DNA from: a virus | Virus record (IMG/VR): IMGVR_UViG_3300043427_001745 | Location: 1-37,971 of that record | DNA: 37,971 nucleotides | Reading direction: 5' to 3' (one strand) | Shown here: positions 9,901 to 15,815 of the stretch, in pieces | How positions within the stretch are numbered: the stretch's first letter is position 1 | Layout of the letters: each line of letters starts with the position of its first letter | Notes under the pieces: generated by a model | What the model saw: only the letters and a program-made list of their open reading frames with translations | Databases searched by the model: none | Told to the model about the DNA's origin: nothing | Made by a program: the position numbers and the translations under genes

Positions 9901-11120
9901 GTTTTGTCAAAGCCATCTCGGAGGCAGGGCGCGCGGGCTTGTTCGGCGCCGAGTTTAACCAAGCAAAGTTCAACAAGGACTTTACACAGGCGGCCATCGG
10001 GTCTGCTGGATTTTATTCTTTGGGCTACTGGTTGGCCAACCTCGGCATCATCACCAGCGTGCAAGAGGACGACAAAGATTTGGAGGCCATGCGCCGCGCT
10101 TCGGGTCTCGGCTCATATCGGGTCAACGTGACCGCGCTCAACCGTGCATGGCGCACTGGCGATTGGCGCAACCGGCAGGAACCGCAAGAGGGCGACACGA
10201 TTGTCTCTTACGATTGGGTGCAGCCGACCGCCATTACCTTGGCCGCTGGTGCCGATGTTTATTACAACGAGCGAACCGCCGGCCGCAAAGCAAGCCGCGA
10301 AGGCGTGGCCAATGAAGCATCGCAAGCGTTAAGCGCACTCATGTCTGGCACCAAGACTCTCAGCGACCAACCACTGCTTGGTGGACTTGGCTCGTTTATG
10401 AAGGCTTACAGTTACAACAAGAACAACATTGTTGAGGCTGCCTACGACACCGTGCTTGGCATCCCCTCAATGTTTGTCCCCCAGCTTGTGCGCAAAGCCG
10501 CCCAATACCGTGACAATACGTTGCGCGAGACGCGAGCCGGCGACAATACGCAAAGGGCCTTTGCGCAAATCGCCACGCAAGTTCCTTTCTTGAGCGAGTC
10601 CTTCCCGCCGCGCTTCGACATCATGGGCCAAGCACAAGAGCGGTATCAGTATGGCGGGAACTCTCTAATGAACATCATCCTCAACCCCGCCATGGTAACG
10701 AAGATCAAGAAAGATCCCGTGTTGACCGAGGCGCAGCGACTGATTGACGCCACTGGTGAGGAGCGCATCGCCCCGCGGGCGCCGGCACGGACTGTTGACT
10801 TGAACGGAAAACGCTACGAACTAACCAACGAGCAGATCAGTGCCTACCAGTTCTACGTCGGCAACTACACGATGGCCCGCTACAACCGTTACATGGCCAG
10901 CCCAAGGTTCGCGCGACTACCGGATGCCGCGAAGGTGGACATTCTGGCCAAGGAATTGAGCGATGTTCACGCCGCCACCAAGTCTCTGGTTTTGGGCGGA
11001 AGTGCAGAGCGCTTAACCCGACAACAGCTTTACCTTCGCCGCATTCTCCAACGCAGCGAGCTTGGGAGCACCCCGCCGACCGGGATGCCGTTCCAAAGCT
11101 ACGCCGTGCCACAAAATTAG
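6987..11120 (+). CDS. Giant internal virion / DNA-ejection protein candidate
   Basis: 1377 residues, the largest gene. Residues about 140-180 form a long small-residue hydrophobic segment (PASLAIGTAAGTAAGAPIAG), a plausible membrane-crossing element. Residues about 335-390 are a Pro/Thr-rich linker. Near 728-760 there is LFFPTTWVRNIGGNTVQWI, close to a P-x-T-x-x-x-N-x-x-G-N pattern I associate with very large phage internal or polyvalent proteins. A second apolar stretch lies near 985-1025 (AAIGSAGFYSLGYWLANLG). I see no lytic transglycosylase or protease motif, unlike T7 gp16. Position last in the tail block and size favour an ejectosome component. The family is unproven. Confidence 0.6.
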   Translation: MVVDFIPDDTAATGSSDPLDATPVDFVPENDFGVGFVSDTTDVERGNIVIQTLGNIANAGKRGYLQSRLATELSQETPDANRVIELQSAMREAAPSPEYMAAMNDELTPAESWNAFVSNPVSVMGEMLTESLVSFGEQMMDKAPASLAIGTAAGTAAGAPIAGVGAIPGAAVGARAGLTQASFSASRALEASDGILRSLEEAGVPMNDPQALAAALQDPERMKVAREFADKKAVPVALFDAASMLLGGRLLGQKPVSVMQKIGRGAIETAFQSLLGMGGEATGQLNQEGEITSGRSILAEGVGEIAPGMAQVAMGTRLQQAETRGMPTPLTMDQVEGIGGTIDLSEQPQQPAATEGAPAAPTETPVDRSGNIPTPSPLPQPAEAKPRTFEQKAMESDAITPAAKEQLGSFYGAYTFPQAVQAAKDWVNANGLDAAQARMREFVQTKVLPSPVDIAIGMEAAGKLGALGEHDKQAALVMDLSEIGTSAGQAISIYQLLPRMTPEGITIFAQKQIGKYVGSLPEDRQKQILADQQAVQGVRGQLGNMRTDFANKAIGETPYGGETIKARVGRRIGDKTAAEALLVGARDVLLKADNRDMAKDSVLEMFVGAGISKSESQSLAKNLTDGFYSSMAAGRRELAATLAPQASNKKAISMLQDRLRAGDMTDSEFVSRVSQSKSIPTLTPEVAAKLKDYAAQYQQATDPDVQMVLGAKMYEEIAGLVPSDIFGKMRATSYLSMLFFPTTWVRNIGGNTVQWIANAGRDAAIGYVVDPLTSIVRGDNRRTSAGLGALSRLRGLAAPASDFKKGYDWNKKQNPQANVLQNTRAALSHLRVLSKLTTQNKWELVDVKDVGRRMFSNKFMQMLESTLSVALGAPDRAFYMSQFKASLAQQEAAAKQNGEWAGQITPDMYEAAVADAMYAIYQDPNRVSKTLGELRRIGNLNKEFGIGTAILPFTQVPGSILKKGIVDWSPVGFVKAISEAGRAGLFGAEFNQAKFNKDFTQAAIGSAGFYSLGYWLANLGIITSVQEDDKDLEAMRRASGLGSYRVNVTALNRAWRTGDWRNRQEPQEGDTIVSYDWVQPTAITLAAGADVYYNERTAGRKASREGVANEASQALSALMSGTKTLSDQPLLGGLGSFMKAYSYNKNNIVEAAYDTVLGIPSMFVPQLVRKAAQYRDNTLRETRAGDNTQRAFAQIATQVPFLSESFPPRFDIMGQAQERYQYGGNSLMNIILNPAMVTKIKKDPVLTEAQRLIDATGEERIAPRAPARTVDLNGKRYELTNEQISAYQFYVGNYTMARYNRYMASPRFARLPDAAKVDILAKELSDVHAATKSLVLGGSAERLTRQQLYLRRILQRSELGSTPPTGMPFQSYAVPQN

Positions 11121-11184
11121 GGCCGCCCCGGTTTCCCAGAGCGGCCCAGCCCCGCACTCGCGGGACTCGTCCTAGTGGTTAGGA
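11120..11184. terminator. Cluster of three hairpins between convergent genes
   Basis: Three inverted repeats follow each other: GGGCCGC 11120-11126 with GCGGCCC 11141-11147; CCCGC 11151-11155 with GCGGG 11160-11164 around ACTC; TCCTA 11170-11174 with TAGGA 11180-11184. They separate the end of the plus-strand tail operon from the end of the minus-strand lipoprotein gene, the place for a bidirectional terminator. No long T-run follows, so intrinsic termination is likely but not classical. Confidence 0.5.
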
Positions 11185-11199
11185 GACACACTGGACAAA

Positions 11200-11604
11200 T
11201 CAGTAGCCATAATAGCCGTAGGCCGGCGGCCTGTAAATAGGCGCCCCAATCGGTGCGCGGCTGCCAATACCCGAAATCACCGTTGTTCCTCCGACCGTGC
11301 CGACCGTAGTGATGGCCGGTGAGTCCGGCCCCACGACAACGACCGGCTGCGGCGGCGGTGCATACTGTGCGGCCATGGCTTGATTGAAGACGGTCGGATC
11401 AAACGCTGCGGGCGCTGGGCTGCCATCCTCCATAACCCAAGGATGACCTGACCCGAAGAAACGGGTTCCTTTTGGCACCCACTTGCCATCTTGTGTGCGG
11501 ACCAATCCCTTGGCGTCCATCCTCGCTGCCTTTTCGTTGTATGTTTCGCAGCCAGTGGCGGCCATCACCACGGCGGCGGTTAGTGTTAGGGTTAGGAGTT
11601 TCAT
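11200..11604 (-). CDS. Small lipoprotein coupled to the integrase
   Basis: 134 residues. The start is the ATG at 11604, which overlaps the integrase TGA as ATGA; AGAAG lies upstream. The N-terminus MKLLTLTLTAAVVMAATGC is a type-II signal peptide with lipobox ATGC, so the mature protein would begin with a lipidated Cys19. The mature part (ETYNEKAARMDAKGLVRTQDG, then a GTRFFGSGHPWVMEDG segment) ends in a Pro/Gly/Tyr-rich tail (YRPPAYGYYGY). No family is recognised. Being translated from the integrase message suggests expression during establishment or maintenance of lysogeny, for example surface alteration or superinfection exclusion. An outer spanin is the alternative, but the lysis genes are far away. 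Confidence 0.7.
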   Translation of the reverse strand: MKLLTLTLTAAVVMAATGCETYNEKAARMDAKGLVRTQDGKWVPKGTRFFGSGHPWVMEDGSPAPAAFDPTVFNQAMAAQYAPPPQPVVVVGPDSPAITTVGTVGGTTVISGIGSRAPIGAPIYRPPAYGYYGY

Positions 11605-12776
11605 ATTTGTGGTTCTTCTTGAAATGCTGCCGGCACGGTCACGGCTCTTTGCCATGTCGCATACCAGCGTTGCGTTGTTACATAGGACGAGTGTCCCAAA
11701 AGGTATTGTGCTTGGACGAGTGACCCCGTCGCCTCCAGCCAATCACTGCCGGCTTGCTTGCGAAGCTCGTAGGCGGCGCCCTTGCGGTTCGGGATGTATT
11801 GCCGCAGCCATGTGTTGAAGTTGCGCAGCATGAAGTTGTAGCGAAGAAACTCTGTGCCGAGCGGGATCATGTAGTCATCGGCGGCCAGCAGATGGTCGGC
11901 CATCCATGGTGCCAAGGTAATGTCGCGCTCGCGGCATCCCCCTGTCTTTAGGGTGAAGTCCTCATCGGGGCGTTCGCGGATGCACATGGTCTTGCCCTCG
12001 GGGCGGTCCTCGATCCATGTCTTGCGGGCATAGCTGACCTCCTTCGGCGTCATGCCTATGTAGCGGCAGCAGATAAAGGCGCGGCGGATCTCGGGCATGC
12101 CACGGCTGTCGCGCTCCATGGCATCCAGCTTGTCCTTGGGAATGTGCTGGAAGCTGGTCGGGTTGTATTTCTGCTTGGCTTGTTTGCTGGCCGAGCGGAA
12201 GGAGGCGATGTCGGGCAGCTTAAAGTCGATCCAGTCGTTGCTGTCGGCAAACACACTCTTGGCACTGGCGAGCGTGCTGCCGGCGGTGTAGGCGCTGGTT
12301 CCGCAGTTGGTCAGGTATTGGCGCACCAGCTTGTCGTTCAATTCGGTGGAGCGGACGGCCATCACCTTGGCGATCTCGGCATCAGTCATCGGGATGGAAC
12401 GGCTCTTTATCATGGGGTGCGCCCGAAATGGGGCAATGCCCTTGGCTCTAGCGATGACTCGGAGCAAACAGCGAATGTTTTCCTCCTTGCTCGGGCAGTC
12501 GCTTCGCAGCCGGTAATGCTCGACGACCTTGCCGATGCTCGGGGATTCGTCGCGGCCATGGGTCAGTTCGGTGAGGCGGGACATGCCTTCTTGGCCAAGG
12601 ATGTTTAAGTAAGACAGCCCCTTGGCCTTGGCTACCTTGGGGTCTGCCGTTTTTAGAGAGATGCGGCGCATCTTCTTCTCATGGGTGTATCGCAGCCAGA
12701 GCGCGCCCCGGCGTTGAAAGACTGTGCCTCTTAGCCCATACTTCGGGACTTCTATGCGGAAACTTTCAATGTTCAT
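11601..12776 (-). CDS. int: Tyrosine recombinase (phage integrase)
   Basis: 391 residues from the ATG at 12776. A TTG 13 codons upstream is in frame, but it is itself the -35 box of the likely promoter, so the shorter start is chosen. Residues about 1-60 resemble an arm-binding/SAM-like N-terminus (RRGALWLRYTHEKKMRRISL). The catalytic domain shows beta-hairpin Lys277 (FTLKTGG), Arg339 in YELRKQAGS, His362 in LLGHSSYVTT and Tyr372 in QRWYA. Box I is RYIGMTPKEVS, where the usual TGLR arginine aligns with Thr243. Role: integration and excision at the adjacent tRNA-Arg-like site. It is translationally coupled to the lipoprotein downstream. The missing first arginine leaves activity open. Confidence 0.88.
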   Translation of the reverse strand: MNIESFRIEVPKYGLRGTVFQRRGALWLRYTHEKKMRRISLKTADPKVAKAKGLSYLNILGQEGMSRLTELTHGRDESPSIGKVVEHYRLRSDCPSKEENIRCLLRVIARAKGIAPFRAHPMIKSRSIPMTDAEIAKVMAVRSTELNDKLVRQYLTNCGTSAYTAGSTLASAKSVFADSNDWIDFKLPDIASFRSASKQAKQKYNPTSFQHIPKDKLDAMERDSRGMPEIRRAFICCRYIGMTPKEVSYARKTWIEDRPEGKTMCIRERPDEDFTLKTGGCRERDITLAPWMADHLLAADDYMIPLGTEFLRYNFMLRNFNTWLRQYIPNRKGAAYELRKQAGSDWLEATGSLVQAQYLLGHSSYVTTQRWYATWQRAVTVPAAFQEEPQI

Positions 12777-12786
12777 AACGAATCCA

Positions 12787-12815
12787 TTGCTAAACCGTCT
12801 GCCCCGTGGTGTCAA
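12787..12815 (-). promoter_or_regulatory. Integrase promoter with almost no leader
   Basis: On the minus strand TTGACA (12815-12810) is followed after exactly 17 bases by TAGCAA (12792-12787). Only ten bases separate this -10 from the integrase ATG, so transcription would start about four bases before the codon. One short direct repeat (TCAAGATGG, 12812-12820) overlaps the -35, which would let integrase or an excision factor block its own promoter. Confidence 0.5.
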
Positions 12816-12878
12816 GATGGTGCATGTTGGGTGTCAAATGGGTGTGGTTCAACGTGGCATCAAAGTGGGTCAACGTGG
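12812..12878 (+). repeat. Five short direct repeats, integrase arm-site candidates
   Basis: Nine-base units of consensus TCAANNTGG lie in the same direction: TCAAGATGG 12812, TCAAATGGG 12834, TCAACGTGG 12849, TCAAAGTGG 12860, TCAACGTGG 12870. Spacing falls from 22 to about 10 bases. They sit between the integrase start and the tRNA fragment, where lambda-type attP arms carry integrase N-domain sites. A further exact TCAACGTGG is at 17158-17166. Confidence 0.55.
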
Positions 12879-12880
12879 TC

Positions 12881-12894
12881 AATTTATAGAGTAA
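12881..12894 (-). repeat. TTACTCTATAAATT element, copy left of the tRNA fragment
   Basis: Read on the minus strand this is a near copy of the TTACTCTGTAAAATT elements at 12974-12988 and 17183-17197. It faces the 12974 copy across the tRNA half. Regulatory-protein or recombinase-accessory binding is inferred from repetition and symmetry only. Confidence 0.4.
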
Positions 12895-12904
12895 CTTTTA
12901 CCTA

Positions 12905-12943
12905 GCTCCCGTAGCTCAGGGGATAGAGCAGCGGATTTCTAAA
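12905..12943 (+). other. 5' half of a tRNA-Arg(TCT) gene; attP core candidate
   Basis: The segment reads as acceptor strand GCTCCCG, TA, D-stem GCTC, loop AGGGGATA, GAGC, a base, anticodon stem GCGGA and loop TTTCTAA with anticodon TCT. After the loop the complement TCCGC is absent and the similarity stops, so no T-arm or 3' acceptor exists. A tRNA fragment ending at the anticodon loop next to an integrase is the usual mark of a tyrosine-recombinase attachment site, with crossover in the anticodon stem-loop. Most such phages carry the 3' half; here it is the 5' half. Confidence 0.65.
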
Positions 12944-12973
12944 GGGCCGTGCGGTTTCTGGCGGTCCATGGAA

Positions 12974-12988
12974 TTACTCTGTAAAATT
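12974..12988 (+). repeat. TTACTCTGTAAAATT element, copy right of the tRNA fragment
   Basis: Identical over 15 bases to 17183-17197. It contains the dyad TTAC-TCT-GTAA and overlaps the stop codon of the adjacent minus-strand gene. Possible operator or excisionase/integration-accessory site. Confidence 0.45.
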
Positions 12989-13192
12989 GCTGTTGTGTGC
13001 TGTCGTGTTACGCTTGGTGTCAACTTGTGTGCCTTTAATAGATCGGGCGGCCATCACCTCTGGTTCGGCGGCAGTAGCGGCCAGCGTCTTGCGCCACCTC
13101 TCTAGCTGAACGCTGTTCAACACTTTTGAAAAGTCAATGGCGACATGCGCAATTTTTCTGTGTGCTTTGCTTTCCATGGTCTCGGCGGCCAT
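12974..13192 (-). CDS. Unrecognised 72-residue protein next to attP
   Basis: Starts at the ATG of a GTGATGGCCGCC element (MAAETMESKAHRKIAHVAID); a second in-frame ATG at 13177 would give 67 residues. The core IDFSKVLNSVQLERWRKTLAATA is basic and helical and could bind DNA, which would fit a location beside the attachment site, but no family is recognised. Neither start has a clear Shine-Dalgarno sequence. Confidence 0.5.
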   Translation of the reverse strand: MAAETMESKAHRKIAHVAIDFSKVLNSVQLERWRKTLAATAAEPEVMAARSIKGTQVDTKRNTTAHNSNFTE

Positions 13193-13205
13193 CACTTGCC
13201 GGCTG

Positions 13206-13234
13206 AAGGGAGAGGGCGATTTGCCCCCTCCCTT
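13206..13234 (-). terminator. Strong hairpin between two accessory genes
   Basis: AAGGGAGAGGGC 13206-13217 faces GCCCCCTCCCTT 13223-13234 around GATTT, a 12-base stem with one mismatch. It lies after the stop of the 13249-13650 gene and before the next gene. There is no T-run on the minus strand, so it may be a weak terminator or an RNA-stability element. Confidence 0.45.
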
Positions 13235-13248
13235 GTGAGCGGCGTGTG

Positions 13249-13650
13249 CTATGGTCCGAATGCTTTGCGGGCACTTTTCGCGGTTATGGCGTAGATGATT
13301 TCTTGGTGGCGGTCGCTCACACCATCGAGCGGCAGCCCCTCGGCCATCAGCTTGTCGTGGGCGCGCTTGCGCTCCCCCGGTGTAGCGGCCCGCAAGTGGT
13401 GCTTGTATTCCTGTGCCCACCAGTAGGCTAACCCCATGTAGTCGGGCGTCCCGATCATGGCGTCATCAATCCGGTTAAGGATCATGTGCATGCGGAACGT
13501 TAGGCGCCCCGGCGTGGACGACGTGCCCTCTCCCCATTCGGTTGCCGAATAGCGAGACAGCTTGTTGACGTATTTGCGGAGGCGCAAACATTCGGCCTGG
13601 TATTCCACCTCGGCCTCGGTTGGCTTCCGTTTCTTGGGTGTGGCGGCCAT
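13249..13650 (-). CDS. Unrecognised 133-residue protein
   Basis: MAATPKKRKPTEAEVEYQAE opens with a basic patch and helical region; SRYSATEWGEGTSSTPGRLT and YMGLAYWWAQEYKHHLRAAT follow. It starts at the ATG of a TGATG overlap with the preceding gene, within a GTGATGGCCGCC element. The helical, charged pattern suggests a soluble small protein. No function can be assigned. Confidence 0.6.
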   Translation of the reverse strand: MAATPKKRKPTEAEVEYQAECLRLRKYVNKLSRYSATEWGEGTSSTPGRLTFRMHMILNRIDDAMIGTPDYMGLAYWWAQEYKHHLRAATPGERKRAHDKLMAEGLPLDGVSDRHQEIIYAITAKSARKAFGP

Positions 13651-13895
13651 CACCTGCCCCACCTTTCGTTAGGGTTAATCTCCAGCCAGCGGGCGAACCA
13701 ATCATCGTCGGCCCACAAGAAACAATCGGGACCTTGATCCTTGGCCAGCATCGCCTCGACGGTGCCGGTGTCGGTGTGCAGTGCCTCGGCGGCATCCTGT
13801 ATTGCCTCGGCTTGTGTGTCGCCGTAGCCCATCGGATTGCCCTCTGAGTCTATGATTGCGAATGGTGTTTTCGTTTTCATGGTCGTGGCGGCCAT
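13650..13895 (-). CDS. Unrecognised 81-residue acidic protein
   Basis: MAATTMKTKTPFAIIDSEGN, then a GYGDTQAEAIQDAAEALHTD segment and a Trp-rich end (FLWADDDWFARWLEINPNE). The start is the ATG in TGATG shared with the upstream gene's stop (13897-13895); its own stop TGA overlaps the next ATG in the same way. The AxxAIxDAAE helix after a short beta segment resembles small phage HicB-like or dsRBD-like folds, but this is too weak to name. Confidence 0.6.
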   Translation of the reverse strand: MAATTMKTKTPFAIIDSEGNPMGYGDTQAEAIQDAAEALHTDTGTVEAMLAKDQGPDCFLWADDDWFARWLEINPNERWGR

Positions 13896-14326
13896 CACTT
13901 GATGAACACATGCGCCGGCCGTGGGGCCTGACGCATGAATTCCCACAATGCCCGCATGCTGTAAGGCATGTCGGCATCCCATATCTCCAGCGCGCCGTCT
14001 CCCGGCCACCGGCCAAAACTATAAGTCACACCATGCTCCGTCACCTTGAAGAAGTATGAGCAACTATTGTCTTTAGGGTCATTTACTTCGACCGTGAAGT
14101 ATGGTTCTTCGTTTGGATCGTAGTCTTTGGCTTGTGGTTGGGGACCGGCAGAGCCGCCGCAGATCACGTCTTCAAACGGCACTAGGCTGGCCCGCTTCTC
14201 GACAAGACTCGGGCAGAAGTGCCGAACGTATGCGAGCGGGTCGCGGTCTTCGCCGTCCCACCCCTTGCCATCCCACCATTGTTTCGGTTGCTGTTTCTTG
14301 GCTTTTGATTTTGCTGTCTTTTTCAT
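13895..14326 (-). CDS. Unrecognised 143-residue protein with basic N-terminus
   Basis: MKKTAKSKAKKQQPKQWW is a lysine-rich tail followed by WDGKGWDGEDRDPLAYVRHF and a beta-rich C-terminal half (EPYFTVEVNDP, SYFFKVTEHGVTYSFGRWPG). AAGGAGACAC precedes the ATG at ideal distance, identical to the leaders of three other genes here. The basic tail suggests nucleic-acid contact. No family is known to me. Confidence 0.65.
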   Translation of the reverse strand: MKKTAKSKAKKQQPKQWWDGKGWDGEDRDPLAYVRHFCPSLVEKRASLVPFEDVICGGSAGPQPQAKDYDPNEEPYFTVEVNDPKDNSCSYFFKVTEHGVTYSFGRWPGDGALEIWDADMPYSMRALWEFMRQAPRPAHVFIK

Positions 14327-15292: not shown

Positions 15293-15525
15293 GCTGCCTC
15301 CTTTGGCGCATCTGCCTCCCCGCGCAACATGTCCACGGTGGGAACATGCGCGTCACCGAACAACGTGACCCACCCCATGCACTTGCCCCCGTCTGCCTCG
15401 ACTTGATCCCTAACGCGCATACATGCACGGATCGCGGCGGCGTGTGTTGTATATGGCCCCCCGTCTGATAGGCAGCGTCCGCCGCTTGCCGCGCGCCATT
15501 CTACCTTGTAATAGACATTGTTCAT
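15289..15525 (-). CDS. Unrecognised 78-residue protein
   Basis: MNNVYYKVEWRAASGGRCLS, then AAAIRACMRVRDQVEADGGK and WVTLFGDAHV. A GGAGGG precedes the ATG. It has the pattern of a small alpha/beta protein of the accessory type common in phages, with no identified role. It overlaps both neighbours by four bases (ATGA). Confidence 0.65.
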   Translation of the reverse strand: MNNVYYKVEWRAASGGRCLSDGGPYTTHAAAIRACMRVRDQVEADGGKCMGWVTLFGDAHVPTVDMLRGEADAPKEAA

Positions 15526-15815
15526 TGTGCGCCCTCCGTTTTTGCAATCGCTTCCCACAGTGCGCGCAGCGCTGGCGAACCAGACGAACCGGCGCCCAAG
15601 GCAAGCAGCTCCTCATTAGCTAGGCGCGCGGCGGCCAATAGGTCCGGCGCGGCCTCTATCAGTCGAGAATTGGCCTCGTTCTCGGACTCAAAGCCGAAAG
15701 CGTGCGAATCCGCCTCACCTCCGCAGCATGGCAGCAGCTTGGCAACCGGGCGGTATGAGTGTCCAGAGCGGTGGCAAATGACATTGCCGTTTCGGGTCCA
15801 TGGTGCGGGCGTCAT
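15522..15815 (-). CDS. Phage accessory protein with LIEAAPDLL motif
   Basis: 97 residues. MTPAPWTRNGNVICHRSGHS with Cys15 and CC near 33-34, then NEANSRLIEAAPDLLAAARL. The (E)ANxxLIxAAPDLL phrase recurs in many short phage proteins of unknown function, often after an N-terminal beta part like this one, so the family is familiar but its biology is not. The start at 15815 overlaps the upstream stop as ATGA. Confidence 0.65.
   Translation of the reverse strand: MTPAPWTRNGNVICHRSGHSYRPVAKLLPCCGGEADSHAFGFESENEANSRLIEAAPDLLAAARLANEELLALGAGSSGSPALRALWEAIAKTEGAQ

Follow-up and report, generated by a model that had tools for sequence, protein, structure and literature searches.

We conclude, with a probability of about 0.92, that 38 bp of the window (the whole stretch of viral DNA analysed, 37,971 nucleotides in length) form the core of attP in a temperate phage that infects Verrucomicrobia, and that the phage integrase directs recombination between attP and the anticodon arm of the tRNA-Arg(TCT) gene in the host, by which the phage 5' half and the DNA upstream of it become joined to the host 3' half. 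The fragment itself, its host target, an integrated junction in a relative of the phage and, for a distant homolog, both junctions are observed directly.

The tRNA half in the window

The core (Table 1) is an exact 38-nt copy of nt 1-38 of a tRNA-Arg(TCT) of the Chthoniobacterales type. Specifically, positions 12905-12943 read GCTCCCG TA GCTC AGGGGATA GAGC A GCGGA TTTCTAA A and contain the 5' sides of the acceptor and anticodon stems, the D-arm with its GCTC/GAGC pairs and the loop of 7 nt with the anticodon TCT at 12938-12940. The earlier note had described a 39-base fragment that follows tRNA rules as far as the anticodon loop and then loses all pairing; the pairing is as described, and the sequence past the loop (AGGGCCG...) is phage-specific, but the block in common with hosts is 38 nt long because at position 12943 the window has A where hosts have T. 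The 38-mer occurs once in the window and, with up to three mismatches allowed, not at all in 100 shuffles. A tRNA 3' half was looked for in the window and is absent, and neither a complete tRNA (ARAGORN) nor a match to an Rfam family was found there. Thus, the window holds an attP with a tRNA half that ends in the anticodon loop and, as had been claimed, this half is the 5' half, which sets it apart from the usual 3'-half type.

Among the proteins encoded in the window are an SU10-type major capsid protein, a terminase, a DnaB helicase and an endosialidase chaperone; terminal repeats are absent. When compared with the genome G005, the related genomes are seen to be circularly permuted with the att region internal, and therefore the window shows attP and not a prophage end. 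A blastn search of INPHARED with positions 11000-14200 of the window returned no near relatives.

Table 1 Features of the attachment region, in window coordinates
Feature	Position	Strand	Basis
Tyrosine integrase gene, divergent from the tRNA half; Thr replaces catalytic Arg I	11601..12776	-	PHROG_1, PHROG_216, Pfam, alignment
P arm, from the int start to the tRNA half, with phased GTGTCAA/GGTCAA-type repeats; 5' flank of the rebuilt tRNA in the lysogen	12777..12904	+	Repeat positions; equivalent flank before the complete tRNA in G001
ATAGAG, an A(C/T)AGAG-type motif at -19 relative to tRNA nt 1	12886..12891	+	Motif of this kind at -19 in 21 of 28 att sites
attP common core, nt 1-38 (5' half) of tRNA-Arg(TCT)	12905..12942	+	Exact match to complete tRNA-Arg(tct) in L011 and L012
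Anticodon loop TTTCTAA, presumed 7-bp strand-exchange overlap	12936..12942	+	Phage-host identity in attP/attB/attR stops right after it; exact cuts inferred
P' arm, phage DNA in the place of the tRNA 3' half in attP	12943..13060	+	Common to the attP of relatives; missing from the integrated junction in G001
CTCTGT, inverted counterpart of ATAGAG on the P' side	12977..12982	+	Sequence

Viral relatives, hosts and the integrase

Searches with the integrase identified 29 viral contigs, and in 26 of these a 5' half of tRNA-Arg(TCT) or tRNA-Met(CAT) lies beside int; the remaining three contigs end before it. For grouping we used 28 att sites, a set that includes the window and one contig found by its DNA pattern alone. 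Group 1 (9 sites, among them the integrated G001) and group 3 (10 sites, with an integrase ~40% identical to those of groups 1 and 2) carry tRNA-Arg(TCT), and group 2 (9 sites) carries tRNA-Met(CAT). The break point is at the anticodon loop in all 28 sites. The Met and Arg halves have the same layout, and across these groups the tRNA has thus been switched within the integrase family with the 5' half kept. With up to two mismatches allowed, the tRNA-Met half has a match in 10 of 213 genomes from the order, and the native copies are full tRNA-Met(cat) genes.

The exact 38-mer is present in two genome contigs (L011, L012), from Chthoniobacterales-type Verrucomicrobia MAGs, and lies in both within a complete tRNA-Arg(tct); a host tRNA-Arg with precisely this 5' half, the absence of which had been named as grounds for rejecting the proposal, therefore exists. 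When up to two mismatches were allowed, 16 of the 213 order genomes were matched, each at a single position, and the target tRNA-Arg(TCT) appears to be single-copy in these genomes. Only three 5'-half sequences occur over the 19 phage Arg sites, and each is identical to a host sequence. In chimeric phage/host tRNAs, for which 11 of these 16 matched host genomes were taken in, all acceptor and anticodon-stem positions pair in 8 of 8 matched combinations, and at least one pair is lost in 25 of 25 mismatched ones. The equality with host sequences together with this pairing indicates that the half stays tRNA-competent towards particular hosts, and phage-host identity reaches tRNA nt 1, beyond what an anticodon-arm core would need. 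Such exact attB sites can be used to link these uncultured phages with their hosts.

The integrase starts 128 bp to the left of the tRNA half and reads away from it. It matches PHROG_1 (E 6e-11) and also PHROG_216; Pfam Phage_integrase was matched in 9 of 9 family members at an E limit of 10 (best 4e-5), with the PF00589 match of the window integrase lying below the Pfam cut-off. Residues K277, R339, H362 and Y372 align with the catalytic R-K-H-R-H/W-Y set. At the position of Arg I, residue 243 is Thr (T243, GMTPKE) in all 15 aligned integrases of groups 1 and 2, in which the first His (HxxR) is Tyr as well; Arg I is kept in the group 3 integrases (6 of 6; GLRPSE) and in the sole cellular homolog aligned. 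No substitute for Arg I was identified in the Thr243 integrase. We count against our explanation both this Thr and the fact that the 213 order genomes contain distant relatives of the integrase and no close ones. Because G001 has a Thr-type integrase and looks integrated, we consider this type to be probably active. A comparable loss is described in sections of PMC8138268, in which the first catalytic Arg is absent or shifted in the CTnDOT and IntDes integrases and IntDes, like the window integrase, also has Tyr for the first His; this likeness does not imply a common subgroup. A search of PDB sequences with the integrase profile gave no match. The AlphaFold model has a mean pLDDT of 60 and is confident only for the N-terminal strands and a helix, and because the catalytic domain is poorly modelled, we draw nothing from it on Arg I.

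Integrated junctions and their interpretation

In G001 (L005; IMG genome 2737471655), the anticodon loop is the exact point at which phage DNA gives way to host DNA. The junction is composed of the phage 5' flank, the phage 5' half and the host 3' half, and is called by ARAGORN as a complete tRNA-Arg(tct). The 5' flank of this tRNA is identical to that of the free relative L084 at 126 of 130 nt; in comparison with three native host flanks (L058, L059, L054) it has 64-65 matches in 141-142 alignment columns, and relatives without the phage retain their own 5' flank at tRNA-Arg. The rebuilt tRNA is thus parted from its native 5' flank, as in other elements of the 5'-half type. The host side of G001 resembles the DNA that follows the intact tRNA-Arg in G065, with 85% identity over 1396 nt. 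These data bear out the proposal that the phage re-supplies the 5' part by a crossover in the anticodon loop, the exact cut positions being deduced from where identity stops. This is the only integrated junction found in the close clade, with the second junction lying off the contig, and we count against our explanation that it is single and that its join, across a 38-nt repeat, is possibly an assembly error.

Profile searches of the 213 order genomes and 387 genomes of the phylum identified 10 integrase loci in 8 genomes. A tRNA or tRNA half adjoins int at eight loci; none is adjacent at G220:C20, and G220:C52 is outside the eight loci counted for tRNA halves. Five of the eight have 5' halves (G404, G151, G203, G232 and G487) and three have 3' halves (G405, G344 and G220:C45). 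In G404, a complete tRNA-Arg(TCT) (15325-15401) lies beside int and an exact copy of nt 1-39 is displaced to 60022-60060, which gives both junctions of a 44.6-kb island. In G151, an exact copy of nt 1-38 of tRNA-Lys(CTT) is displaced to ~89100-89137, where it adjoins an integrase remnant suggestive of a former tandem element. G203 (tRNA-Thr(CGT)) and G232 (tRNA-Leu(TAG)) have attP-like 5' halves, the intact gene being located at another place in the same genome, and in G487 (tRNA-Pro(GGG)), which offers a single junction, the 5' half is deduced from the orientation. Among the 3'-half loci, nt 31-75 of tRNA-Thr(TGT) are displaced in G405 and nt 30-77 of tRNA-Val(TAC) in G344; the tRNA-Lys(CTT) 3' half at G220:C45 was read by eye, and no second copy was found in G220. 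An empty site for the G404 island was sought in 20 relatives, and matches outside G404 covered only the tRNA and its neighbourhood (~80 nt or less) with no conserved flank. A complete tRNA is rebuilt on integration, as seen at one junction in the close clade and with both junctions in G404. Of the predicted pair of junctions, one with a complete and the other with a cut tRNA, the former is found in the near relative G001, but the cut tRNA is absent from its contig and the pair as such is seen in the distant homolog.

At all eight loci, the carried half is the one between the crossover and the integrase, and because of this, whether it is a 5' or a 3' half follows from the tRNA pointing away from or towards int. 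We suggest that the anticodon-arm core is near-symmetric and could be held in either orientation. In the integrase tree, 5'- and 3'-half users are intermixed with at least three changes; because the cellular branches are very long and their placement is unsure, we do not claim an order for these events.

Several observations were made at these loci in passing. The G404 island (L168-L171, G404:C63:15402-60021) carries a type I restriction system, a subtilase and a protein with SpvB and TcdB-middle domains. The G151 island at tRNA-Lys(CTT) (L145-L148, G151:C58, ~43682-89137) has a truncated second int after the displaced half. Near 15614 in G220:C20 (L150), a partial tRNA-Thr(TGT)-like 3' half, uncalled by ARAGORN, lies ~2.6 kb before a broken integrase. 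G242:C9:82979-83018 is a second partial tRNA-Arg copy (~nt 1-40, 98%) 3.8 kb from the full gene and may mark a further 5'-half element.

Because G001 offers a single junction on one contig, a false join over the 38 bp common to phage and host is possible for this genome, in which case the phage would integrate elsewhere. We regard such an assembly chimera as very unlikely: the attP layout, the host-matched variants and the conservation across the clade are independent of G001, and in both G404 and G151 a single contig holds the full tRNA together with the displaced 5' half. Our main explanation is integration into tRNA-Arg(TCT): the window integrase, presumed to be active, would join attP and the anticodon arm of the host gene by a crossover presumably located in the anticodon loop. 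The phage 5' half with its own upstream DNA would be placed before the host 3' half to give a complete tRNA gene beside int, the host promoter would be left with the displaced 5' half at the far prophage end, and the phage flank would drive the rebuilt tRNA. By the logic of the sequence, and as arranged in G404, a promoter left before a displaced 5' half might also yield a functional tRNA-half RNA, acting as decoy or regulator besides the att role; such a product is similarly improbable, as identity ends where recombination predicts and the att role accounts for all features. Phages often carry tRNA genes, and the half found here might instead be a decayed tRNA gene that was once complete in the phage, and no attachment site at all. 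This alternative is extremely unlikely given a break that falls at the anticodon loop in every one of the 28 att sites, a position that is always beside int, Arg halves exactly equal to local host sequences, the switch to tRNA-Met with the same layout, and the integrated junctions in G001 and G404, which contradict it. Finally, tRNA-dependent lysogeny, in which the host tRNA is broken and the phage supplies a complete one, would suit a target that has one match per genome in 16 of 16 genomes but can be dismissed, because the window holds no complete tRNA, the core is 38 bp instead of ~10 bp and the tRNA is rebuilt in G001.

Known systems and transcription of the rebuilt tRNA

The earlier note held that tRNA-targeting phages usually carry the 3' half, and this agrees with the Islander islands, of which 3760 of 3919 have 3' and 159 have 5' tDNA fragments (PMC4383910, Table 1); the 5' mode is itself already known, as a rare one, from Islander and from the pTN3-like integrases of Thermococcales. 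For mycobacteriophages, parts of PMC10865867 describe 3' halves as usual, with a crossover in the anticodon loop, a core of 30-45 bp and a tRNA rebuilt at the junction; the phage in the window is alike in crossover and rebuilding and differs in that the mycobacteriophage-type 3' half keeps the host promoter. In the pTN3-like case, as far as covered in PMC8371274 and PMC5495485, attB is a tRNA 5' half and the rebuilt tRNA is parted from its original promoter and expressed from the integrase side, which is seldom seen in bacteria according to PMC8371274, citing Williams 2002. There, attP lies in int and integration disrupts the gene, whereas in the bacterial phages described here attP is upstream of a divergent int that stays intact. 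The 5'-fragment islands of Islander follow the same logic and are known here as a table count; in our data, the 5' half is fixed across a phage clade and both orientations occur in one integrase family. In the literature, covered in part, we found no Verrucomicrobia phage clade of the 5'-half type, and did not find clade-wide 5'-half use, a switch of tRNA target or mixed orientation in one integrase family described before.

The majority of tRNA-targeting elements leave the host promoter in place, which partly explains why tRNA genes seem to be safe targets; a whole phage clade described here gives it up, and distant relatives of the same integrase family carry 3' halves. This makes testable the rarity of 5' halves, the expression of a rebuilt essential tRNA and the switches of integrases in tRNA target and orientation.

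Between int and the tRNA half, repeats are spaced ~10-11 or 21-23 bp and are of the type GTGTCAA/GGTCAA in groups 1 and 2 and GTGGCA/TTGGCA in group 3. In 21 of the 28 att sites, an A(C/T)AGAG-like motif begins precisely at -19, and most sites have counterparts across the core. We suggest that these repeats and motifs are binding sites for integrase or excisionase. For promoters, flanks were scored with a sigma-70 matrix against 60 shuffles; native loci comprised 7 of 16 for Arg and 3 of 10 for Met, of which the Met flanks were ambiguous. Five of the seven native Arg flanks scored above at least 98% of shuffles, and the phage-side flanks did so in 1 of 28 cases at the 98% level and 2 of 28 at the 95% level. 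By this measure most native Arg flanks look promoter-like, whereas the phage flanks do not, which we also count against our explanation. In a simpler scan, the phage intergenic region showed no promoter-like site, and neither did native L058. Near the phage flank, the sole promoter-like hit (12714-12742) is weak and falls within int.

The idea that the restored tRNA would receive a new promoter-proximal sequence from the phage thus holds at the level of sequence, as the phage flank precedes the tRNA in G001, but the promoter scans of phage flanks were negative. It seems rather unlikely that a phage control region of phased integrase/excisionase sites, without an ordinary sigma-70 promoter, drives the tRNA-Arg(TCT) or tRNA-Met of the lysogen; if it did, the clade would take over transcription of an apparently single-copy host tRNA, and the supply of AGA-reading tRNA would depend on the state of the prophage. 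Sections of PMC13023037 describe co-transcription of a tRNA with the int gene behind it, and the divergent layout of int and tRNA would prevent this here. Around the att region, a GGCGGCCATCAC-like repeat is present near gene boundaries in five copies between 11500 and 13800 (11555, 12352, 13044, 13182 and 13640) and relatives have it too; its minus-strand reading is GTGATGGCCGCC, which resembles a stop/start junction.
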